Part shown: positions 47,075 to 64,000 of the stretch, one piece after another
Layout of the letters: each line of letters starts with the position of its first letter
Numbering within the stretch: the stretch's first letter is position 1
NCBI RefSeq assembly: GCF_009909615.1
Contig: NZ_WWNE01000002.1
Span: 877-64,876, forward strand
Length of the DNA: 64,000 bases
From: Acidiluteibacter ferrifornacis
GTDB taxonomy: Bacteria > Bacteroidota > Bacteroidia > Flavobacteriales_E > Vicingaceae
Reading direction: 5' to 3'
Position numbers and translations under genes: made by a program
Notes under the pieces: generated by a model
The model's input: the letters and a program-made list of their open reading frames with translations, nothing else
Databases searched by the model: none
Told to the model about the DNA's origin: nothing

Positions 47075-47992
47075 TCCATTAAATAAAAATGCTAACTTCT
47101 ATTAGATATAGTGATAATAAAAAGGTTTTAGGTGCTGAAATTATAAAAGATAAAAGTGCCAAATACTCTTGCGAATATTGTAAAAAAGAAACTATTCATC
47201 ATAAGTCAGAAAGTCAAGTTAGAATAGGCCATTTTAAGCATAAACAAGGTGCTTCACATTGTCCAAATCAGACAAAAGAAACTCAATGGCATTTTAAAAC
47301 CAAATATGACATTTTAGCTTACATAACTAATGGATGGGGCAACAAATTAAAACATATTGAGGTTGAAAAATGGATTTGTAATAACTCAATCCGCTCTGAC
47401 TTATACATTGAGACCTCAAAAAATAAGATAGCAATTGAAGTACAAGCTTCAATTTTAACTGCTTCAGAAATAAAAAGACGGACTGATAAATACTACAAGA
47501 ATGGTATTGCTGTAATGTGGATTTTGCCATATGACTATGACAGAATATTTGAACCAAAATATTTAGGTTCTCATTATTCTGATGAGGATAACAATAGAAT
47601 GTGGAAACGGGAGAAAGTTAAACTAAAAGAAATGGAAATTTGGCTCTATTGGGCTAATTATAAAAAGCTAATTTTTTGGGACTTAGAACATCAACATAGT
47701 GATGGATTTACGGTTGTAGAGTTCTCTGAATATAAGAGTGAAAGCGTAGATTTTAGAAAAGATGGAATGGATCATTATTATGAAGGTAAAACTTCAAAAA
47801 CGATAAAGACAGTAAGTAAAGTCACTAATAACATACCCTTTGACAAATTGAAAATCTCTTTTTGCAAAGAGTTTAATGCTCCATACAGAAGTTATACAAT
47901 CCCAAAACGTAAGATATTTACTTATGATGATGGAGAATGGAAAAATAAAAACGGAAGGTAACATAGTATAAAATTAATTAGGCATCAGTAGG
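47069..47992 (+). mobile_element. Integron-like gene cassette B
   Basis: It opens with GTTACCTTCC (47068-47077; the G belongs to the site before) and closes with GGAAGGTAAC (47953-47962), a perfect 10-base reverse complement containing the stop codon of the gene. The site after it (GGTAAC....AGTAGGTTACGAC) is only about 40 bases and poorly palindromic, so its attC looks shortened or decayed. The right end at GTT 47992 is therefore uncertain. Confidence 0.5.
47089..47961 (+). CDS. CoiA-like nuclease (cassette B)
   Basis: A 290-residue protein. The N-terminal zinc-binding-like segment YSCEYCKKETIHHK...RIGHFKHKQGASHC resembles the start of competence protein CoiA. The nuclease core follows: RSDLYIETSKNKIAIEVQASILTASEIKRRTDKY, with the D...E-x-Q-x-S pattern of the CoiA/restriction-endonuclease-like fold, then GIAVMWIL. 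The C-terminal 100 residues match nothing I know. CoiA acts in recombination of incoming DNA in Gram-positives. Here the gene stands alone on a mobile cassette, so a defence-type nuclease is also possible. Confidence 0.75.
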   Translation: MLTSIRYSDNKKVLGAEIIKDKSAKYSCEYCKKETIHHKSESQVRIGHFKHKQGASHCPNQTKETQWHFKTKYDILAYITNGWGNKLKHIEVEKWICNNSIRSDLYIETSKNKIAIEVQASILTASEIKRRTDKYYKNGIAVMWILPYDYDRIFEPKYLGSHYSDEDNNRMWKREKVKLKEMEIWLYWANYKKLIFWDLEHQHSDGFTVVEFSEYKSESVDFRKDGMDHYYEGKTSKTIKTVSKVTNNIPFDKLKISFCKEFNAPYRSYTIPKRKIFTYDDGEWKNKNGR

Positions 47993-48876: not shown

Positions 48877-49632
48877 ATGACAGGTGAACAATACTTAAAA
48901 AATGTAATTGAAAAGCACAAGGCTCCAAATTTGTCATTCTATGACACTAGACTTACGAATGTAAAAAATGAAATTCGAAGTTGGGCAGGAAAACAGCTTT
49001 CCGATATAAAACTGTCAGGTTCTTGTGTTAAGAAAACAGCATTAAAAGGAAAGGCTGACTGTGATTTGTTCATTTCCTTAAAATCAGACACTTCTAACTC
49101 TCTATCAGAAATATACACTTTGCTTGATTCTCATTTTAGTAATGCAGGATACAATACACGACAACAAAATGTTTCGATAGGAATCAAGACAAATGGATTG
49201 GATATAGATTTAGTGCCAGGAAAAATTCATTCGGGATATAAAAATTATCATAGTCTTTATTTGAGTAAAAAAAATAGTTGGACACAGACCAATATTGACT
49301 TACATATTCAAAATGTAACTAACTCAGGTCGCCAAGATGAAATAATGTTAACGAAGACTTGGAAGGACTGTCACAATCTCAAATTTCCTTCGATATATAT
49401 AGAATTGGTAGTAATACAAGCCTTGAAATACAAAACCAAAGGTCAACTAGAAAAGAACTTTATTTCTGTCCTTGAGTACCTGAGAGATTCTTTTGTAGGC
49501 ACAAAATTTACAGACCCAGCCAACACTAATAATGTAATATCAGATATGATATTTAAATATCAGCAAGAAAACATTAAGAAAGCGGCTAAATCAAGTCTCG
49601 ATGAACAGTATTGGGGACAAATAATTTGGTAA
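48877..49632 (+). CDS. OAS/CD-NTase-like nucleotidyltransferase (cassette C)
   Basis: A 251-residue Pol-beta-type nucleotidyltransferase. KLSGSCVKKTALKGKADCDLF gives the GS helix start (Gly48-Ser49) and the first two metal Asp (61 and 63). GLDIDLVPGKI gives the third (Asp111). The GS..K.TALKG.(A/S)D.DLF pattern is close to 2'-5'-oligoadenylate synthetase and archaeal CCA enzymes, and fits the CD-NTases of CBASS antiphage systems. It is shorter than most CD-NTases. It is followed after 2 bases by a nuclease-like gene, which suggests a signal maker plus effector. The product nucleotide cannot be predicted. Confidence 0.75.
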   Translation: MTGEQYLKNVIEKHKAPNLSFYDTRLTNVKNEIRSWAGKQLSDIKLSGSCVKKTALKGKADCDLFISLKSDTSNSLSEIYTLLDSHFSNAGYNTRQQNVSIGIKTNGLDIDLVPGKIHSGYKNYHSLYLSKKNSWTQTNIDLHIQNVTNSGRQDEIMLTKTWKDCHNLKFPSIYIELVVIQALKYKTKGQLEKNFISVLEYLRDSFVGTKFTDPANTNNVISDMIFKYQQENIKKAAKSSLDEQYWGQIIW

Positions 49633-49634
49633 TT

Positions 49635-50375
49635 ATGACAAAGACACCCACATTAAAAGAAATCTTTTACAACCTTCAGAATCAGATGATTCAAAAGCTT
49701 TCTACAGACAGGAAAATAATATTTCATTCACCTACTAAAGGTGGCGCAACAGAACTTAATTGGATAGATTGGCTAAAAAAATACCTTCCTAATAGATATC
49801 AAGTTGATCAAGCCTTCATTGTAGATAGTAATGGACGTTTCAGTGAGCAAATGGACTTAGTTATATATGACCAACAATACTCTCCATTTGTATTTAATCA
49901 AGACGGTGCTATTTTCATTCCAGCAGAAAGTGTTTACGCAGTATTCGAAATTAAACAAGACTTGGACAAAGCCAATTTTGAATATGCTTCCGACAAGATT
50001 AAAAGTGTAAGGCTTTTAAATAGAACTTCTGCTCCAATTGTTCTCGCTTCGGGTAGAATTGATAATCCTAAAAAACCATTTCAAATATTAGGCGGCATTT
50101 TAACCCTGACCACAACTTGGCAAGACGTATTTGGCGAGCCTTTTCAAAAAGCAATTTCTGAAACGGATAAAATCTCAAGAATTGATATGGGTTGCTGTTT
50201 AGAAAAAGGCTCTTTTTTAATAAAATATGAGAGCGATACTTATTCTTTCGAGACTAGTTCGGATGATGAATCATTGATATATTTCTTTTTAAAGCTACTG
50301 TCTAAACTTCAAGAATTAGGAACAGTACCTGCACTTGACATAAACGCATATGGACGAGCTTTGGATAGTATTTAA
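49635..50375 (+). CDS. PD-(D/E)XK nuclease-like protein, DUF6602-like (cassette C)
   Basis: The ATG at 49635 (2 bases after the upstream stop) gives 246 residues. The catalytic set fits a restriction-endonuclease-like fold: Glu40 (TKGGATE), Asp74 (FSEQMDLVIYD) and Glu105-x-Lys107 (VYAVFEIKQ). The flow KG..E....L...LP.RY.V..(A/G)FI.DS.G..S.Q.D.VIYD and IPAESVYAV(F/I)E.K recalls the DUF6602 family. An in-frame TTG at 49611 would overlap the previous gene and is less likely. I infer a nuclease effector partnered with the nucleotidyltransferase. Confidence 0.7.
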   Translation: MTKTPTLKEIFYNLQNQMIQKLSTDRKIIFHSPTKGGATELNWIDWLKKYLPNRYQVDQAFIVDSNGRFSEQMDLVIYDQQYSPFVFNQDGAIFIPAESVYAVFEIKQDLDKANFEYASDKIKSVRLLNRTSAPIVLASGRIDNPKKPFQILGGILTLTTTWQDVFGEPFQKAISETDKISRIDMGCCLEKGSFLIKYESDTYSFETSSDDESLIYFFLKLLSKLQELGTVPALDINAYGRALDSI

Positions 50376-54461: not shown

Positions 54462-55256
54462 TTATCTAATTGTAATTGTTTCAGTTTTATTATCGTAACT
54501 CAAGTAATAAATCCCTTTTTCTAAAGTAGAAATATTGGCTTTAGAACCAAAACCTCGCTTTACTATATTTCCGTACTTGTCGTAAATTTCATACAAAGTC
54601 TCACCGTTTGAAAAAGCAATTTCATCTTTAAACTTAGTCTTCCCTTCTAAAGAAATTTCTGGAACAGAAGAAGTAAACTCAGCAGCTGGAGAATATCGAG
54701 GTTTTCCAGTGTAATCCACTTGTTTTACTCTAGCCTTGTTTGCTCCAGAGTGAGGAGTCACTTTAAACGAGTATTTGTGAGCTCCAGGCACACCTTTTCC
54801 TTTTACTTCACCAACTTTTACCCACTTGTTCCATCTGAATTGTTCTACGATGTAGTCCATTTCACCGGTTTCGTTATTAGTTGTCCAATTTAAAACTCCG
54901 TTTTTATCAAATGAAATTTGACTGGTATTAAAAGTAGATTTTGGTTTCAACACATCAGGATTTAATACCTGAACATCACAATCATCTTTGTGTTTAATGT
55001 TAACAATAATAGGGTCTCCCAGTTTTAATTTAAAATTATTGAAATCGATTTCAAATGCACTTGAATTGATTTCATCTGTAGATAATTCTCCATTCACTGT
55101 CACTTCAAAAACACAGAAACCAACACCAGAACCTCCAAAAGAGTTTTTGACAAACAAGTTTTTTCCTTGGTAGTGACCTTCTAAAATAAGAATCCCTGCG
55201 TTAGCAGTTACCGCAAACAACAAGCATAAGACACTAATAACAAGACTTTTCTTCAT
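54462..55256 (-). CDS. Secreted protein with type A sorting-like C-terminus
   Basis: A 264-residue protein with a signal peptide (cleavage after VTANA, residue 20). The middle is beta-rich, with a fibronectin-like stretch at about residues 115-195 (VLNWTTNNETGEMDYIVEQFR). The last 65 residues (LYEIYDKYGNIVKRGFGSKANISTLEKGIYYLSY......ETITIR) have the G..(V/I).G......I..L..G.YYL....ET..I(R/V) pattern of type IX secretion type A tails. It is probably exported by T9SS and kept on the surface. It is one gene with its own terminator. Confidence 0.75.
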   Translation of the reverse strand: MKKSLVISVLCLLFAVTANAGILILEGHYQGKNLFVKNSFGGSGVGFCVFEVTVNGELSTDEINSSAFEIDFNNFKLKLGDPIIVNIKHKDDCDVQVLNPDVLKPKSTFNTSQISFDKNGVLNWTTNNETGEMDYIVEQFRWNKWVKVGEVKGKGVPGAHKYSFKVTPHSGANKARVKQVDYTGKPRYSPAAEFTSSVPEISLEGKTKFKDEIAFSNGETLYEIYDKYGNIVKRGFGSKANISTLEKGIYYLSYDNKTETITIR

Positions 55257-55402: not shown

Positions 55403-58400
55403 TCAACCATTCTTCTCATATTTTTTCAATACTTCCTTTAACTCAATAATTCTTTTTTGTTTTTCAGGATCTCTTCTGCTCTTGGCCGATTTTGTAAAGT
55501 ACTTGTGCATAGTCAAAAATTTCACTTGCAAATGATCCCAATCCTCCGCTGACTTGAGCTTCCCAAATTTCATCAACTCTTGTTTCAACGTTTCCGCTTT
55601 TGGGTAAAAATCATTTCTTCCCAAATAATCCAAATCTGCATCACACATCAATTCTTCCAAATGAGATTGGGGGTTATGTGGAACCTTGGTGGCCTCTATC
55701 AGTGTAATCACTAATTCTATTTGTTCTTCCGTGTATCCAAAGCTCGGCAGCATTTCTTTTGCCATCTGTGCTCCAATCGGTTCGTTACTCTCATACGATT
55801 CAATGAAACCTGCATCATGAAACAAAGCAGCAGTTTTTAGCAAGTATAATTCTTCTCCTCTAACTCCTTCCCAAATAGCCAATCTTTCAACACTTTCACA
55901 TACATCTTTGGTATGATGTATTCCATGATAATAGAGTCCTTCAGGCAACTCATCCCCTAATCGTTTAATAATGTATTTTTCTGCATTTCTATAATTTATA
56001 TTACTGTAAAGCTTAAGGTTCACATAATGCTCAAATGCTTCATTTGGAGTTATTCCATCTTCATTTTCAGATAGCTCTGGTTTCACTCCATGCACATAAT
56101 ACATGTCAATTTCGCCTTTATTTTTTGCCGGAATTTTGCCTCTGTACTCACATTCAAAAAACTCTGCAACAGCTTCGTATGTCGTTCCAGATATGTTGAT
56201 CATACCGACTTCGCAAGCAGTTTCTAGTCGGCTAGCAATATTTACCGTATCCCCCCAAATATCATAAGCAAAACGCTTGATACCTACAACTCCGGCGATT
56301 AAATCTCCTGTGTGAATACCAATTCTTAACTCCCAAGGCTCCTCACCTTTCGCCTCCATCTTTGCGGCTTCTTCCCGCATGCACTTTCTAATATTCAATG
56401 CGGCTAAAACGGTATCTATAGGGTTACTTTTATTTCGAATTGGAAGTCCTCCTGCACATAGGTAGGCATCTCCAACAGTCTTAATTTTTTCTACGTCAAA
56501 CTCAGCGGTGATCTCATCAAATTTGATAAAAAAGCTATCTAATTTAGCCACTAAATCTTGCGGCTTATAATTCTCCGCTATTTGGGTAAACCCTGCAAAA
56601 TCAGTAAACATTACCGTTGCTCGCTTGTAGTTCCGGGCTTTGGCTCGTCCCCTATTTTTGAGTTCTTCAGCCGTTTCTTTTGGTAAAACGTTCAGCAGTA
56701 ATTTCTCGGTTTTTTCCTTTTCTTCTTCTACTAATCTTTTTTGTACCTCAACCTCTTCTTTTTGCTTAATGATTTCAATGGTTCGATGTTTAACTTGAGC
56801 TTCCAGAATTTTTTTCTGCTGCTTTACACGCTTTAATCGACTTCGATAATAGAAAAATATTAAACTCAAAACAGACAATATTACCAATGTTCTAAACCAC
56901 CAAGTGGCCCAAATTGGGGGATGAATGGTCAAGGTTATTTTTACTGGCTCGCTCCAGATGTCATCACTATTACTTCCTTTAACTTTAAAGGTATAGGTCT
57001 TAGCATTTAGATTGGTATAGGTAGCGACCCTTGAGTTATCTATATACACCCAATCGTCATCAAATCCTTCTAACATATAGGCATGTTGATTCTTTTTTGG
57101 ATTGGAATAATGCAAGGAAGCGAATTCAAAGGCTATTACTTTTTGGTCATAATCTAAATCAATGTGTTTCGTTTCTGAGATACTCTGCTGAAGAATACCA
57201 TCTTCAGTAATTGGCACCTTTTGATTGAATAGGTTAAACCCTGTTATTACCATCTCTGGTGGGTTCCTATTGATTGCTATTTGGTTGGGAGTAAAAACAT
57301 TAAATCCATCTATTCCACCAAAAAACAACTCAGAATTAGCCGACTTAAATCCCGCTCCAGAATTAAATTCGTTGTTTTGTAACCCATCGGTTTCACTAAA
57401 ATTGGTAATTAAACCAGATTTAATATTATATCGGCTAAGTCCCTTATTAGTACTAATCCACAGGTTGTCATTATCATCACCAATAATGGAATTAATGGCA
57501 TTATTGGACAAGCCTTCATTCTCTGAAACATTCCTGATCTTTCTAGTAATAAGATTATACCCGTACATTCCTGCAGAGGTATTACCAATCCAAAGCTCCT
57601 CCTTTTCCATCCATAAGGAGGTAATGAAATCATCTTTTATTTGTGGTTTAGCAATTCGATAGCGAAATGGGTTGATTCGTAATGTATGAAAACTAACAAC
57701 TCCTTCCTCTGTACCTAACCATAAAGTGTCTCCTTCCTTAGTGGTAATGGAACGAACTACATTGGCTTTTACCCGATCTTTAATACCATCTGACTGGTCA
57801 AAAAAGTGATCAATTTTACCTGAAGTGTTTATTCTTAACAGACCTTGCCTATTACCTATATAAACTTCACCATTATCCATCACCTTAATGGCATATGTTC
57901 TACTTTTATTCTTTGGGTGATAATAATCTTCAAATGTTTTCTTAATTGTATCGAATCTCTTGAATCCGTCCTCTGTTCCTACCCAAAAACCATTTTTGGT
58001 TGGTGCGATCGAAAAGATGCCAGCTCCTTTATTAATATTCGGCTGATAGGTAGCAATTTCATTGGTGAGAATATTGTATTTAGATAATCCATTATCACCA
58101 CCAATCCATACAATTGGCAACTCTTTGGAGTAAATTGTCCAGACTTTACTATTGTCTATCTGATCGTTACCGGCTATGATTTGATAATGGTTGAAATTTT
58201 GTCTCTCACTATCGAATTTATTAATCCCAAACCGTGTTCCAACCCACAAAATACCTGTTTTATCAGTAGTTAAACTTAAAACAGTATTGGAACTAATCGA
58301 AGTAGACATATTGGAAGAGTGAGTAGATCGATCTAACTTTGAAGTCTTTAAATTATATCGAAACAACCCCGAGTTTGGTGTTCCAATCCACATTGATGCT

Positions 58401-59203
58401 TTGCGATCTACATGAACTACAGATATTTCAGCATTGGAAGCCTTAAACTCTTCACTAAAATCACGGTACAATGCAAAGATTAATTTTTCATTTAGATTAT
58501 AGATACCTGTTGAAGTGTAAGAGTAAAGTACTTGTTGATATTGCTTAAAACCAATAACTTTTTGATTTTCGGGAATCCCTGAAACACTAGTAAAGTTGGC
58601 TTCTTGCACAGATTTAGACCTCAAAACGCCTTTATCTGTAGCCAAATAAATGGTCGAATTAAAAAGTTCTACTCCATTTATTTGGTAGTTGACTGACTCC
58701 CAAAACAATGAAAACGTAGAAGTAGAAATATTTAGTTTAAATAATTTATTATTCGCAATAACTAACAAATGCGCTGAGTCCAACTCGAGTAGACTTTGAA
58801 CACTTAGCAGTTTATCTTTTAAAACGGAGTAATTCTTAAATTTTAAGGTATGGGGTGAATAGGAGGAAACCCCTTTGTCTGTGGCAATCCATATTAACCC
58901 ATCGGCCGCTTGAATAATTTGATTGATGTTATTACCCTCAATAGAGTTTGAGTCATTCAGATTATTGATGTAATTGGTAAATTCATACCCATCATAACGG
59001 TTAAGACCGTTTTGAGTGCCAAACCACATGAAACCACTTTGATCTTGTAGTATCGTTTTTACCGTACTTTGGGAAAGTCCATCGGAGGTTGTAAGACTTT
59101 GAAATTTAATAGTAGTCCCTTCAGAAGAAATGCCAACCACAATTGATAAAATCAATAATAGCAACTTGCTGTACCAATGTTTCTCTTTCAAATTGTACAT
59201 CAT
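55403..59203 (-). CDS. Reg_prop sensor fused to adenylate cyclase and HD domain
   Basis: A 1266-residue protein. A signal/anchor is followed by two Reg_prop beta-propellers (about residues 30-690, repeats such as GLSQSTVKTILQDQSGFMWFGT) and a Y_Y_Y domain. A membrane segment near 780 and a coiled coil to about 850 come next. The class III cyclase follows: metal Asp868 and Asp912, Lys908 and Asp981 selecting ATP, and catalytic Asn988 and Arg992. Last is an HD-type domain: His1093, His1096/1097, HD at 1129-1130, Asp1188/1190. It should make cAMP in response to a periplasmic signal, and the HD end may hydrolyse a nucleotide. It overlaps the PorE-like gene by 4 bases. Reg_prop normally precedes a histidine kinase. 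Confidence 0.88.
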   Translation of the reverse strand: MMYNLKEKHWYSKLLLLILSIVVGISSEGTTIKFQSLTTSDGLSQSTVKTILQDQSGFMWFGTQNGLNRYDGYEFTNYINNLNDSNSIEGNNINQIIQAADGLIWIATDKGVSSYSPHTLKFKNYSVLKDKLLSVQSLLELDSAHLLVIANNKLFKLNISTSTFSLFWESVNYQINGVELFNSTIYLATDKGVLRSKSVQEANFTSVSGIPENQKVIGFKQYQQVLYSYTSTGIYNLNEKLIFALYRDFSEEFKASNAEISVVHVDRKASMWIGTPNSGLFRYNLKTSKLDRSTHSSNMSTSISSNTVLSLTTDKTGILWVGTRFGINKFDSERQNFNHYQIIAGNDQIDNSKVWTIYSKELPIVWIGGDNGLSKYNILTNEIATYQPNINKGAGIFSIAPTKNGFWVGTEDGFKRFDTIKKTFEDYYHPKNKSRTYAIKVMDNGEVYIGNRQGLLRINTSGKIDHFFDQSDGIKDRVKANVVRSITTKEGDTLWLGTEEGVVSFHTLRINPFRYRIAKPQIKDDFITSLWMEKEELWIGNTSAGMYGYNLITRKIRNVSENEGLSNNAINSIIGDDNDNLWISTNKGLSRYNIKSGLITNFSETDGLQNNEFNSGAGFKSANSELFFGGIDGFNVFTPNQIAINRNPPEMVITGFNLFNQKVPITEDGILQQSISETKHIDLDYDQKVIAFEFASLHYSNPKKNQHAYMLEGFDDDWVYIDNSRVATYTNLNAKTYTFKVKGSNSDDIWSEPVKITLTIHPPIWATWWFRTLVILSVLSLIFFYYRSRLKRVKQQKKILEAQVKHRTIEIIKQKEEVEVQKRLVEEEKEKTEKLLLNVLPKETAEELKNRGRAKARNYKRATVMFTDFAGFTQIAENYKPQDLVAKLDSFFIKFDEITAEFDVEKIKTVGDAYLCAGGLPIRNKSNPIDTVLAALNIRKCMREEAAKMEAKGEEPWELRIGIHTGDLIAGVVGIKRFAYDIWGDTVNIASRLETACEVGMINISGTTYEAVAEFFECEYRGKIPAKNKGEIDMYYVHGVKPELSENEDGITPNEAFEHYVNLKLYSNINYRNAEKYIIKRLGDELPEGLYYHGIHHTKDVCESVERLAIWEGVRGEELYLLKTAALFHDAGFIESYESNEPIGAQMAKEMLPSFGYTEEQIELVITLIEATKVPHNPQSHLEELMCDADLDYLGRNDFYPKAETLKQELMKFGKLKSAEDWDHLQVKFLTMHKYFTKSAKSRRDPEKQKRIIELKEVLKKYEKNG

Positions 59204-62200
59204 TTAAAGTATATTTTAAATTCTGTTCGTCGATTGATTCTATTTTCTTCTTTTGTTAAAGGCACATTCAATATATCTTGAATTAGCAACAAATTAACTT
59301 CTCCTTTGGCCACTCCTTTTAGCCTACTCTTTTTAATTCCTGCATCTGTTAAATAATCAATCACTGAATTTGTCCTTTTTTTTGATAATTTCTCATTGTA
59401 TTTTTCAGGTCCCATGGGATCAGCATATGAAATTACCTCCAATTCTATCTCATCCTGTATCAACAATTTAGCTATTAAGTCATTGAGTTTATGTACTTCT
59501 GAAGAGTCAATTTTGTAGCTATCAAAGTCATAATATACAACATATTGATTTAAAAAATCAAAATAAGTGGTATCTATAGGAAGTGAACGCAGCGTATCCA
59601 CCTCATTTTTGAACGCAAGGAAAATATCGCTATCCTCCAGTTTTTCAACAGGTATTATTGCCTGATCTAGATCAAGCTTTGTATACTTGAAGTTTCCTCT
59701 TCCCAATTTGGCCGCGCTTGCTATTACCTCATCATTTATATCATAAAGCACCATGTTAAGGTCAAGCGTTTCATCACCGACTTTGAATGAATAGTTTGCA
59801 TCTGGATCTAAGGTTTCAAATTTAAATCGACCATATTTATCGGAAAGAACTACATCGATGATGTTGCCATTCTCATCGAGTAAGTATACTTTAACAATCT
59901 GATTGTAATCGTTGGGTAATTTTCTGTATACCTGTCCAAACAATGCAAACCGGTCTATTGGCATAATGTCCGTCACGTCCTCCTCTTGAATTTCTTCCAA
60001 TATTGCAACCTCGGAAGTTAGTTTCGTGTATTCAAATTTTCCGGCACCAGTTTTAATTGTATTACTTAAAAATTCATTGGTTTCATTCTGCAATGAAATG
60101 GATAAGTCATCGTCAATGGCCTCTGGAATTAGGAACGTATATCGCTTATCTGGATCTAGCTTTGTAAATTTAAATAAGCCAGTAGAGTCAGTATACGTTT
60201 TACCTACTATATTTCCCTCATCATCAAGAATTAAGACTTCAATTCCTTTTGAATAATCCCCAGGAAGCTTTTTGTAAACTTGTCCAAAAAAGCTAATTGC
60301 CTTATCCTCTAAAAGTATAGGTTGTACATTATATTCATCAAACGGAAGAGCTTGAAAGGTATAATCTCCATTTTTAAGTCGATTTAATAGATACAATTTT
60401 TCACTGTCCATATTAAGTGCAAAAAGTCGGATATTATCCTCCTCTCCATCTATTCTTACCAAGTAATTTTCATTCAGTTCTAACTGATTAAATTCAAACT
60501 CCCCTTTATGATTAGTGTAGGTGGTTCTCAAAGTGTCACCAGATACTGAAAGCATATAAATAAGAAGATTACTAATTGGAACACCATCTTTCTCAGCCAG
60601 CCCAATAATAGCTGTATGGTCGGATTTATGAGATTTTAGATAATGATAGTTAACCGTTCGTGATTTATCTATGGCAAATTTATTGTCATTGTCTTTGGAA
60701 GGAAGGTCAACAATTCGTTCATAATTGTTGATTAGTGCAAAGTCAATTCCTGGATTAGATTCTTTTAGCATTACCAAATAGTCTTTGTCGAAGGGTAAGT
60801 TTCTAAATGACAACCTTCCATTTTCATCAGCGAAGGTAGAATCAACAATATTTCCAGCATCATCATATAAATACACCATCATTCCTTCAGAAAAATCTCC
60901 AGGTAACTTATCGAATAACTGTCCAAAAATCATGAATTCATTTAAGGTGACGTCTTCAGCCTTCAGCAAGGCCATTTGCTTGATTTCATCCAACTTAAGA
61001 GTGTTGAACTTAAAAGAACCATCTGCCAATCGATCTACTAAAAGCATTTTTTCACCCGAGTCGTCCGTTATGAAAATTTTAGCATTAGGATAAGACTCCT
61101 CATCCTTGGCATCTATAGTAACGATATAATTTTCATCAACTGGCAGTTTACTGAATTTAAATCGACCATTCTTATCCGTATAAACTACTTCAATCACGTC
61201 TCCGTTTTCATCCAACAAATTAAGCTTTACACCTTCAGTAGGCAATCCATCAAATTCAAATAATCCAGCAATCGCAATAGAATCAACAGAAGTAGAATCT
61301 CTAAGTTGAAAATAATAAACATCGTCACTCCCTTTTCCACCTTCTCTATTGGAAGAAAAGAACCCTTCGTTATCTGAGATAAAGCTTATTCCAAAGTCAT
61401 CAGTTGTAGAATTAATGGGTCCTTTTAAATTATTCGGCTCAGTATGATCTAGCGTTGTAATAATAGATTCAAACAAATCTAAACCACCATAACCACTAAG
61501 TCCATTGGAAGCAAAATACAATTTATTCCCTTTACAATAGGGAAACAACTCATTCGCCGCAGTATTAATCAATCGTCCCAAATTGATTGGTTTACTCCAA
61601 TCGTCGCCTGCCTTATTAACGTAATACAAATCCATTCCTCCAAAACCTCCAGGCATGTCAGAACTAAAATAAAGCCGACTTCTATCGTGTGAGAAATACG
61701 CATGACCAATAGAGTAATCATCGGAATTAAATGGAAATTCCTTTTCATCTCCCCATTTTTTCCCATCCCAAGTGGAGTAATATACTTTCATTCGATTGAC
61801 AAACTTTCGTCCCTTTTCTTTGTTTTCGACTCTTGTGTAAAATGCGGTAGTTTGTGCAGAGTCGAATGATATAGGCCCATCGTGATAAAGCGTATTAATT
61901 GCTGAAGAGAATTCTTTAACTTGAGAAAAATGTTTTTTATCAGCAGACATATCAGCCTGATAAATGGACAAAAAAGGCCTTTCCGTCCAATCAAAAGTCA
62001 CATCATTTTGGTGGTCAATTCCTCGATCAGAAACAAATACGATTGAATTGTTATATCCTACTGGAGAAAATTCCGCAAAATTGGTATTTAATCCACTTAC
62101 GGTATCAATAATGAAGGCCTGAAATGCTTGCCTCCATACCTCAACATCTTCAATAGACCTCACAGCTAGTTTTGCTATAAAACTCTCCGGGTTTTTATTG

Positions 62201-62589
62201 GCGAATTCTTTAAACTGAGCTTGCGCTTTCAACAGTTCTTTATTGGCTAAAAGCACCTGACCATATGACAAGTGTGCTTGACTAGGTATATTTTCAAAAG
62301 AACTAATCTTTGAAAACACTTTAGCTGAATTATGATAATCATCAATCTTTTTGTAACTCTCAGCTAGCTTGTATAATATACGATTGTTGGAACTATCCTT
62401 CAATAAAGCCTTCTCATAAGCTACTATGGCTTTTGGAAATTGAAATTTATCGAAAAGCCGATCACCTTTATCTTTCTGAGCAAACAAAAATATAGAAGAA
62501 TAAAAAAGGAAACAAAACACCAACAACTTCTTAATAACATGAAGACGAAATTGTTGAGTTAGAAATATATGTTGAAAAATATCGGTCAT
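59200..62589 (-). CDS. PorE-like type IX secretion/gliding OmpA protein with five regulatory-like repeats
   Basis: A 1129-residue secreted protein with the PorE order of parts: TPR helices (about residues 40-140), a PD40 beta-propeller (about 165-430), carboxypeptidase-regulatory-like domains, and a C-terminal OmpA domain (YYDFDSYKID, ISYADPMGPEKYNEKLSKKRT, NRINRRTEFKIYF). PorE itself is about 670 residues with one regulatory domain. Here there are five related repeats, three starting FGQ(V/L)(Y/F).KLP.D(Y/F) and all holding (D/N).(N/K)G.F.F..L. The OmpA end should bind cell wall. It follows PorP by 18 bases and overlaps the cyclase gene. Confidence 0.85.
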   Translation of the reverse strand: MTDIFQHIFLTQQFRLHVIKKLLVFCFLFYSSIFLFAQKDKGDRLFDKFQFPKAIVAYEKALLKDSSNNRILYKLAESYKKIDDYHNSAKVFSKISSFENIPSQAHLSYGQVLLANKELLKAQAQFKEFANKNPESFIAKLAVRSIEDVEVWRQAFQAFIIDTVSGLNTNFAEFSPVGYNNSIVFVSDRGIDHQNDVTFDWTERPFLSIYQADMSADKKHFSQVKEFSSAINTLYHDGPISFDSAQTTAFYTRVENKEKGRKFVNRMKVYYSTWDGKKWGDEKEFPFNSDDYSIGHAYFSHDRSRLYFSSDMPGGFGGMDLYYVNKAGDDWSKPINLGRLINTAANELFPYCKGNKLYFASNGLSGYGGLDLFESIITTLDHTEPNNLKGPINSTTDDFGISFISDNEGFFSSNREGGKGSDDVYYFQLRDSTSVDSIAIAGLFEFDGLPTEGVKLNLLDENGDVIEVVYTDKNGRFKFSKLPVDENYIVTIDAKDEESYPNAKIFITDDSGEKMLLVDRLADGSFKFNTLKLDEIKQMALLKAEDVTLNEFMIFGQLFDKLPGDFSEGMMVYLYDDAGNIVDSTFADENGRLSFRNLPFDKDYLVMLKESNPGIDFALINNYERIVDLPSKDNDNKFAIDKSRTVNYHYLKSHKSDHTAIIGLAEKDGVPISNLLIYMLSVSGDTLRTTYTNHKGEFEFNQLELNENYLVRIDGEEDNIRLFALNMDSEKLYLLNRLKNGDYTFQALPFDEYNVQPILLEDKAISFFGQVYKKLPGDYSKGIEVLILDDEGNIVGKTYTDSTGLFKFTKLDPDKRYTFLIPEAIDDDLSISLQNETNEFLSNTIKTGAGKFEYTKLTSEVAILEEIQEEDVTDIMPIDRFALFGQVYRKLPNDYNQIVKVYLLDENGNIIDVVLSDKYGRFKFETLDPDANYSFKVGDETLDLNMVLYDINDEVIASAAKLGRGNFKYTKLDLDQAIIPVEKLEDSDIFLAFKNEVDTLRSLPIDTTYFDFLNQYVVYYDFDSYKIDSSEVHKLNDLIAKLLIQDEIELEVISYADPMGPEKYNEKLSKKRTNSVIDYLTDAGIKKSRLKGVAKGEVNLLLIQDILNVPLTKEENRINRRTEFKIYFK

Positions 62590-62607
62590 TAAACTATATT
62601 CAGGATA

Positions 62608-63540
62608 TTAAAAGTAACGAGGTGAAATTAATTTAGACTTAAAAATATCAAAATCAAACCCCACAAAAATCTCATGAGAACCGCCATTTCCAGTTTTCAA
62701 AGTATTGAATGGGTAATCATAGGAATAACCTACCCTCAACTCTTTTGTTAGATAGTACTCAATAAGTGCAGCCATTCCATACCGTTTTCTGTATGATAAA
62801 CCCAGCCACAAGGTTTGCTTAAAGAAAATACTTGCATTAATATCTAGTAACAAAGGGGAATTTACCATTCCTCTGGCCAATATGGAAGGTTTAAATACAA
62901 GGTCCTTTTGAATGACAAAAGCACGACCTGCAGTTAATGTCAGATGAGCATTCTGTTCAATTGTATTGGTTTTATTGATGTTTTCATCAGTGATTCCTAT
63001 TCTATCCTCTGAAAGGTGAGAGGCTTCAATTCCGATATAGTTTTTCTTATCACTATAGTACATTCCAAAATCAAATGAAGGCATAAAATAACTTTCGCGC
63101 CCTAAGTTATAGGAAGCTTCTCTAGTGTCTTTATAGTTTATTTTACTCCAATCAAATTTATAGTTGTACAAACTAGCCCTAATTCCAAATCCTAACTTAC
63201 CGCTGAAAAGTTTAATCTTATAGGCATAATCTCCAGAAATTGCGAGTGTATTCTTGGGGCCAATATTATCATTCATTACCTGAAATCCCACCCCCATATT
63301 TTTACCCCTAAAAGGTGCATGTATAGCTAGATTTTGCGTAGTTGGGGCCCCTTTAAACCCTACCCATTGAGAGCGATGAATTAGCGCAACACTCAAAGCA
63401 TCTCTGCTTCCTGCATATGCAGGGTTCACAGACAAAGGGTTAAACATATACATATTGTATTGTGGATCTTGCTGAGCTAGAGCAGGAGCCATCCATAGCA
63501 ATGTCGAAAATATACCGAGAATCTTCAAATACTTTTTCAT
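62608..63540 (-). CDS. PorP/SprF-family type IX secretion outer-membrane protein
   Basis: The start is taken at 63540 (MKKYLKILGIF) because a signal peptide begins there; an in-frame ATG 24 bases upstream adds only polar residues. It has 310 residues. The mature start QQDPQYNMYMFNPLSVNPAYAGSRD and SQWVGFKGAPTTQNLAIHAPF are the family signature. The rest is an outer-membrane barrel with a C-terminal aromatic end (SPRYF). SprF-type proteins are needed to export or anchor the adhesin encoded directly before them, here the type B-sorted protein 2 bases upstream. Confidence 0.95.
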   Translation of the reverse strand: MKKYLKILGIFSTLLWMAPALAQQDPQYNMYMFNPLSVNPAYAGSRDALSVALIHRSQWVGFKGAPTTQNLAIHAPFRGKNMGVGFQVMNDNIGPKNTLAISGDYAYKIKLFSGKLGFGIRASLYNYKFDWSKINYKDTREASYNLGRESYFMPSFDFGMYYSDKKNYIGIEASHLSEDRIGITDENINKTNTIEQNAHLTLTAGRAFVIQKDLVFKPSILARGMVNSPLLLDINASIFFKQTLWLGLSYRKRYGMAALIEYYLTKELRVGYSYDYPFNTLKTGNGGSHEIFVGFDFDIFKSKLISPRYF

Positions 63541-63542
63541 CT

Positions 63543-64000
63543 CTATTTTGTTAATTCTACCCACCCTTTTTTAATTTGATTACCAGATTCTAAAACATAA
63601 AAATAGGTGGCTCCTGGAAGCAATTTATCATTTAAATTACTACCATCCCACACTACAGTTGAATTATCATAATTTTTGAACTGATTTACTTTTTCGCCAT
63701 ATCTGTTATAGATAGTTAAAGTATTCTCTGGGTAATTAGTGATATTATCTATTAACCATAAGTCGTTCACATTATCCCCATTTGGAGTAAAGCCTGAATA
63801 AAAAACAAGGTCGCAAAAACCGAGAGGTTCAGTACCAATCTCAAATGACTTTGTTAAACTACATCCATTAAACCCAATAACTGTGACTTGATGAATACCA
63901 GCTAATAACCCAGTTTGAGTAGAATCAACAGATCCATCTGAAAAAATAATTTGGTAAGGAGCGATACACCCGTTAATATTTGATACAATGGCAGACCCAT
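63543..64000 (-). CDS. SprB-like adhesin, C-terminal part (T9SS type B sorting domain), partial
   Basis: The frame is open to the right edge, so only the last 152 residues are seen. They contain one SprB-type repeat (AIVSNINGCIAPYQIIFSDG, then TGLLAGIHQVTVIGFNGCS) and the gliding-motility C-terminal domain: GFTPNGDNVNDLWLIDNI, then LTIYNRYGEKV and WDGSNLNDKLLPGATYFYVL. Such proteins are large surface adhesins moved or exported by the type IX system. A GTG inside the PNGD motif (63770) is not a real start. It is upstream of its PorP/SprF partner. Confidence 0.92.
   Translation of the reverse strand, partial: GSAIVSNINGCIAPYQIIFSDGSVDSTQTGLLAGIHQVTVIGFNGCSLTKSFEIGTEPLGFCDLVFYSGFTPNGDNVNDLWLIDNITNYPENTLTIYNRYGEKVNQFKNYDNSTVVWDGSNLNDKLLPGATYFYVLESGNQIKKGWVELTK

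Follow-up and report, generated by a model that had tools for sequence, protein, structure and literature searches.

A Reg_prop/Y_Y_Y sensor protein of Acidiluteibacter ferrifornacis joining a class III adenylate cyclase to an HD domain: a putative self-limiting cyclic AMP module

The window analysed here is a stretch of 64,000 nucleotides (nt) from Acidiluteibacter ferrifornacis, a member of the Bacteroidota (contig NZ_WWNE01000002.1, positions 877 to 64,876). Its reverse strand carries an open reading frame (ORF) with an ATG start that encodes a protein of 1266 amino acids (AA). An earlier sequence-only reading had given exactly the same limits and had described the product as a Reg_prop sensor fused to a cyclase and an HD domain. 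This is borne out by the Pfam matches of the full-length protein (Reg_prop, E 1.8e-20; Y_Y_Y, residues 699-761, E 2.4e-14). The domain order is a Reg_prop/Y_Y_Y sensor, one transmembrane (TM) helix, a coiled coil, a class III adenylate cyclase (AC) and an HD domain, and the cyclase-HD fusion is confirmed as real. The same order, cyclase then HD in a single ORF, recurs in relatives down to 46% identity and is therefore not a chance arrangement. We propose that the protein is probably a single-chain self-limiting module whose cyclase makes cyclic AMP (cAMP) and whose own HD domain hydrolyses it. Its features are as follows:

55403..59203 (-), Reg_prop/Y_Y_Y - TM - coiled coil - class III adenylate cyclase - HD fusion protein, 1266 AA
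59108..59170 (-), hydrophobic N-terminal segment, residues 12-32, possibly a signal peptide or anchor, from hydropathy
57284..59107 (-), Reg_prop-repeat region (Pfam), a predicted beta-propeller sensor in the periplasm, about residues 33-640, limits and location being predictions
56921..57109 (-), Y_Y_Y domain, residues 699-761 (Pfam)
56846..56899 (-), TM helix, about residues 769-786, predicted from sequence
56639..56845 (-), predicted charged helix or coiled coil (signalling helix), residues 787-855
56087..56638 (-), class III adenylate cyclase domain, residues 856-1039 (Pfam and residue alignment)
55406..56056 (-), HD domain, residues 1050-1266 (alignment, structure model and Pfam)

The cyclase domain matches Guanylate_cyc (PF00211, residues 856-1039) with an E value of 2.6e-47 and 161.2 bits, the Pfam cut-off being 21.9. 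D868/D912, K908/D981 and N988/R992 are all present; we take these pairs to be the metal-binding, adenine-selecting and transition-state residues respectively. The Lys908/Asp981 pair put forward by the sequence-only reading is found at the positions it gave, aligned with EKIKTIG and YDIWG in the second catalytic domain of mammalian adenylyl cyclase 8 (AC8; E 2.7e-69). All 79 aligned cyclases share D868, K908, D912, D981 and N988; R992 is kept in 76, and the remaining 3 carry H. The catalytic residues, the adenine-selecting pair among them, are thus intact, and the predicted product is cAMP, probably made by a dimer. This is the only class III cyclase (PF00211) match in a genome that is 99.93% complete (3.5 Mb, 22 contigs).

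Among 80 related loci, the HD lies inside the cyclase ORF in 37 (two of them, L057 and L058, are cut off within the cyclase by the end of the contig) and in the next ORF in 11, while no HD was detected within the locus in 32. Among named relatives, two Vicingaceae records come closest in the cyclase-HD part, with 91% and 86% identity. In the 11 next-ORF loci, a set biased to in-frame neighbours by the search method, the HD match begins 1-124 nt past the cyclase stop and is in the same frame in 9. Readthrough of the stop codon was considered for L043-L054 and rejected, because the search favours in-frame pairs and because L045 and L048 have further stops between the two domains. Sensor regions vary among the fused proteins: Pfam identifies Reg_prop in 25 and Y_Y_Y in 26 of 34, seven (L013-L018, L034) have a short N-terminus of about 100 residues before the cyclase, and the N-terminus of L039 is of a different kind.

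The key residues of the HD domain are Y1092, H1093, H1097, H1129, D1130, E1141, D1188, D1190, Q1226, F1229 and H1233. The Pfam HD profile (PF01966, residues 1096-1190) scores 20.6 bits in the full-length scan, under the cut-off of 22; with residues 1050-1266 as the only input it reaches 25.6 bits, over the cut-off. All 50 rows of the HD alignment (window, 37 fused, 11 adjacent and one extra copy in L031) match PF01966 at E<=10. The presumed metal ligands H1093, H1097, H1129, D1130, D1188 and D1190 are invariant in the 50 sequences, as are Y1092, V1101, G1132, E1141, Y1193, W1222, F1229 and H1233. Position 1226 is Q in 43 and N in 7; together, Q1226 and F1229 recall the purine-binding Gln and Phe clamp (Q-x-x-F), an equivalence drawn from the motif alone. 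The structure model of the domain is confident (predicted local distance difference test, pLDDT, 93.7; predicted template modelling score, pTM, 0.87). The metal site suggested by the sequence-only reading is in part upheld by this confident HD fold and by the invariance of the ligand residues, a check that covers fold and residues.

In a sample of 395 genomes of the phylum, 137 contain a match to the HD profile and 203 a match to PF00211. The sequence-only reading had described cAMP signalling as little known in Bacteroidota; the consulted part of a 2005 census, reporting no ACs in four genomes (PMC1183210), agrees with this, whereas the class III cyclase domains found in those 203 genomes do not. 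One hundred HD loci (mostly the best-scoring matches, not all) were taken, each with some 4 kb of flanking sequence if the contig extended that far. The HD tree comprises 133 rows after 17 near-copies were dropped from 150, and splits on a single branch (Shimodaira-Hasegawa-like approximate likelihood ratio test, SH-aLRT, 100) into clade A and its sister clade P. The window protein belongs to clade A, together with 24 of the 100 loci; these come from 21 genomes, every one in the same class as the window. A strongly matching class III cyclase accompanies 14 of these 24 (2 fused, 12 within about 4 kb), with the closest HD-cyclase gaps being 11, 14 and 40 nt. In clade P the corresponding count is 0 of 76 with the same strong matching, rising to 4 when the threshold is loosened. 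Within the class, all 21 clade A genomes have a class III cyclase, compared with 22 of 59 genomes with other HD matches (Fisher p 1.7e-7, genomes with unfetched matches being counted as not A, a value that is optimistic because of shared ancestry). Clade A HDs are also fused to TPR repeats (L134) and to a YitT-family membrane protein (L138). The latter, a YitT/DUF2179 fusion confirmed by Pfam, is one of four loci (with L140, L143 and L145) in which a clade A HD occurs in a protein of 485-486 AA; a class III cyclase lies within the fetched flanks of each, and that of L145 has a response-regulator domain.

Structural comparison of the HD model with VIA-align places class I phosphodiesterases (PDEs) first: PDE10A (Z 17.9, 2.9 Å, 198 residues), PDE7A (Z 17.2, 2.7 Å, 197 residues), then PDE9A, PDE2A and the RhoPDE phosphodiesterase domain (Z 16.8 or more). 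Among the 50 matches listed, Z ranges from 16.7 to 17.9, with rows within 1 Z counted as tied and no unrelated HD as control. As modelled, the domain resembles class I PDEs in overall fold. In a sequence search of solved structures, the bacterial HD protein 2pq7 is best (6e-6) and YedJ is also among the best, while class I PDEs first appear at 0.03-0.04 and align in the YHxxxH...HD stretch only. The domain is therefore PDE-like in fold and motif, yet not a PF00233 (PDEase_I) member by profile. At 1e-5, PDEase_I has no match in the 395 genomes of the phylum, which is not proof of absence because no control genome matched either. A scan of viral contigs with the HD found no relative.

The bacterial neighbours raise another explanation, in which the HD is an active phosphohydrolase of a different nucleotide (an NTP/dNTP pyrophosphohydrolase like YpgQ, or an enzyme acting on guanosine tetraphosphate, ppGpp, or on a 2',3'-cyclic nucleotide) and tunes substrate or alarmone pools beside the cyclase. 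The best matches, 2pq7 and YpgQ with Foldseek and 2pq7 and YedJ by sequence, include no PDE, and PMC8431786 states that YpgQ-like HDs act on several nucleotides and cites a work whose title terms YpgQ a nucleotide pyrophosphohydrolase. However, the PDEs align over about 198 residues at 2.7-2.9 Å, against 171 residues at 4.4 Å for 2pq7, and the tie of clade A to class III cyclases would be left unexplained. We regard this explanation as unlikely.

When cyclase and HD are modelled as a single chain (pLDDT 89.7, pTM 0.80), the linker is confident, and its residues N1054 and F1057 are invariant in 34 aligned fused proteins. These features would also suit a regulatory receptor, an HD that has no significant hydrolytic role but binds cAMP, AMP or a metal and exerts feedback on the cyclase. 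Such a role appears improbable: the presumed metal ligands are kept in 50 of 50 sequences, and separate HD genes adjoin cyclases, an arrangement that would be superfluous for a regulator acting only within its own chain.

Clade P is linked to a different partner. In 46 of its 76 loci (L153-L223) the HD is fused to a PycTM-type domain, as detected with a local model derived from five fusions of this kind; in the single locus scanned with Pfam the domain is PycTM (PF18967, 5e-34). Separate PycTM genes, both confirmed by Pfam, stand beside the HD in L218 and L227, the latter showing an operon-like row (L227:1277-4600) of a class III cyclase-TPR gene, PycTM and a separate HD. It could then be that the cyclase of the window protein makes another cyclic nucleotide (cyclic GMP, or cyclic CMP or UMP as in Pycsar) and that the HD breaks this one. 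The sister clade joined to PycTM and the match of PADLOC PycC models to the cyclase domain (4.5e-14) are in line with it; PycC is itself a class III cyclase, so that such a match is expected anyway. Since the adenine-selecting K/D pair is found in 79 of 79 cyclases and PycTM (PF18967) was not found at 0.01 in the A. ferrifornacis genome (PycTIR was not searched), this seems very unlikely.

The two kinds of partner go with different residues at position 1226. Of 63 HDs linked to a cyclase, 56 carry Q there and 7 carry N; of the 46 fused to PycTM, none carries Q. In class I PDEs the Gln of the Q-x-x-F motif reads the purine. Q versus N/S/T as proof of purine versus pyrimidine specificity was nevertheless rejected, because clades split by a single branch represent one event, because seven cyclase-fused members have N, and because, in the consulted part of PMC8115329, PDEs of the plant protein CAPE (combined adenylyl cyclase with phosphodiesterase) have N or T at this position although that of Marchantia is termed cAMP-specific. 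More speculatively, the whole HD family might consist of unrecognised bacterial cyclic-mononucleotide phosphodiesterases with a class I-like fold, clade A (mostly Q1226) forming self-resetting cAMP sensors with adenylate cyclases and the PycTM-fused clade P (mostly N/S/T) acting as an off-switch for cyclic-pyrimidine immune signalling. If so, some Pycsar effectors would carry their own messenger-destroying domain.

For the window protein, a self-limiting cAMP module remains the reading we prefer. The periplasmic propeller (Reg_prop/Y_Y_Y) would sense an outside ligand; the TM helix and coiled coil would pair two cyclase domains as a homodimer that converts ATP to cAMP; and the C-terminal HD, as a metal-dependent phosphohydrolase of class I PDE-like fold, would hydrolyse cAMP. 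With such hydrolysis, the cAMP level would report the state of the sensor with a built-in reset, and we infer that the two domains may regulate each other reciprocally. The suggestion of the sequence-only reading that one protein makes and breaks a nucleotide messenger is thus the best-supported one, given an intact cyclase, an intact HD site, a PDE-like fold and the recurrent fusion or adjacency; its second half is the more conditional, motif, fold and repeated gene link making hydrolysis of cAMP by the HD most likely.

Several observations weigh against this reading. In the cyclase, H replaces R992 in three fused members, and the AC-HD model has low confidence around D981 (residues 966-985, pLDDT about 56). 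For the HD, PDEase_I (PF00233) has no match in the window protein and matches 3 of the 50 HD members weakly (best 9e-4), and the hhalign comparison of the HD alignment with PDE4D is not significant, only YHxxxHxxDV being aligned. The structural evidence is tempered by 2pq7, which at Z 16.9 (4.4 Å, 171 residues) is tied with the PDEs in a VIA-align comparison run without an unrelated HD control model, and by Foldseek, whose top rows are bacterial HD hydrolases (2pq7, YpgQ) with the PDEs lower. No cyclase lies in the fetched flanks of 10 of the 24 clade A loci. Over the phylum as a whole, a class III cyclase is also present in 51 of the 64 fetched genomes with no clade A HD (13 have no PF00211 match), so that the genome-level contrast is valid within the class only. 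Finally, the 26 fused rows correspond to three changes on the HD tree (main group, L042 and L149), of which strongly supported branches force only one. A firm claim of repeated independent fusion is weakened in consequence, and a single origin is compatible with the well-supported branches.

The A. ferrifornacis genome includes one copy of this HD (E<=0.01) among six HD-superfamily matches, and eight cNMP_binding (PF00027) proteins, which are candidate cAMP receptors. Neither PDEase_I (1e-5) nor PDEase_II (0.01) was found in it; CpdA-type class III phosphodiesterases were not searched. The genes around the fusion gene are:

63543..63998 (-), type IX secretion system (T9SS) type B (CHU_C) cargo protein, C-terminal end, continuing beyond the window
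62608..63564 (-), T9SS outer-membrane protein of the PorP/SprF family, lying 18 nt upstream of the OmpA gene
59200..62589 (-), OmpA-family, PorE/CHU_0125-like protein, 1129 AA, upstream (NCBIfam matches below cut-offs)
54462..55256 (-), 264-AA protein whose T9SS sorting tail is weak and scores under the cut-off

The CHU_C, PorP/SprF and OmpA genes (59200-63998, reverse strand) lead into the cyclase gene. The TGA stop of the OmpA gene overlaps the cyclase ATG by 4 nt (ATGA), and the two genes are therefore probably in one operon. The CHU_C-PorP-OmpA order recurs upstream in L013, L014, L017, L034 and L031 by tblastn, which also detects PorP upstream in L028, L030 and L037; Pfam confirms PorP for L013, L030 and L037. 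It is a tendency rather than a rule, since tblastn did not find this order in the closest relatives L011 and L012 (L011 has a short OmpA-like stretch) nor in the majority of the more distant loci. A relative of the 264-AA protein lies directly downstream in L011-L015, L017 and L018. The recurring arrangement hints that the cAMP module may be linked to T9SS surface proteins. Elsewhere in the window, a two-gene pair resembling a cyclic oligonucleotide-based antiphage signalling system (CBASS) comprises a cGAS/DncV-like nucleotidyltransferase (CD-NTase; 48877-49632, forward strand; PADLOC oligonucleotide-cyclase 8e-86) overlapping the gene of a NucC-type endonuclease effector (49611-50375, forward strand; PADLOC 2e-97). 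A CoiA nuclease-like protein (47089-47961, forward strand; Pfam 1.8e-14) is encoded upstream of this pair.

Titles and abstract openings of top-ranked open-licence PubMed Central papers did not describe the cyclase-HD fusion or this HD family, and in this literature we met no account of how Bacteroidota switch cAMP off, for which the cyclase-tied HD clade is a concrete candidate. Among known systems, hybrid two-component systems have a Reg_prop/Y_Y_Y sensor with a TM helix and a histidine kinase and receiver as output. The window protein has a similar sensor region and TM helix, whereas its output is cyclase-HD; no histidine kinase or receiver Pfam match was found at 0.01. Pycsar (PycC and PycTM) has the class III cyclase in common, and PycTM is the fusion partner or neighbour of the sister-clade HDs; no PycTM was found in the A. 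ferrifornacis genome. Like class I PDEs, 2pq7 and YpgQ are members of the HD superfamily; 2pq7 is the closest solved structure by sequence and ties with the PDEs in VIA-align. The eukaryotic PDE10A, PDE7A, PDE9A and RhoPDE have a fold in common with the HD over about 196-207 residues in the listed rows, and are longer (278 residues of PDE10A span 207 of the HD model). The HD motifs YHxxxHxxDV, HD, DADL and QxxF resemble YHNxxHAxDV, HD, CADL and QxxF of PDE4D, whose HDxxHPGxxN stretch is missing from the window HD. The closest known system is CAPE of liverworts and other streptophytes, where, according to the consulted part of PMC8115329, a class III cyclase and a class I cAMP phosphodiesterase are likewise in one chain; the same part places bacterial cAMP-PDEs in class III. 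In CAPE the PDE precedes the cyclase; in the window protein the cyclase precedes the HD, a Reg_prop sensor stands N-terminal to both, and Pfam does not recognise the HD as PDEase_I. The protein may be a bacterial counterpart of plant CAPE with the order inverted, which would bring a class I-like phosphodiesterase into the bacterial repertoire and, as in CAPE, close a messenger loop within one polypeptide.

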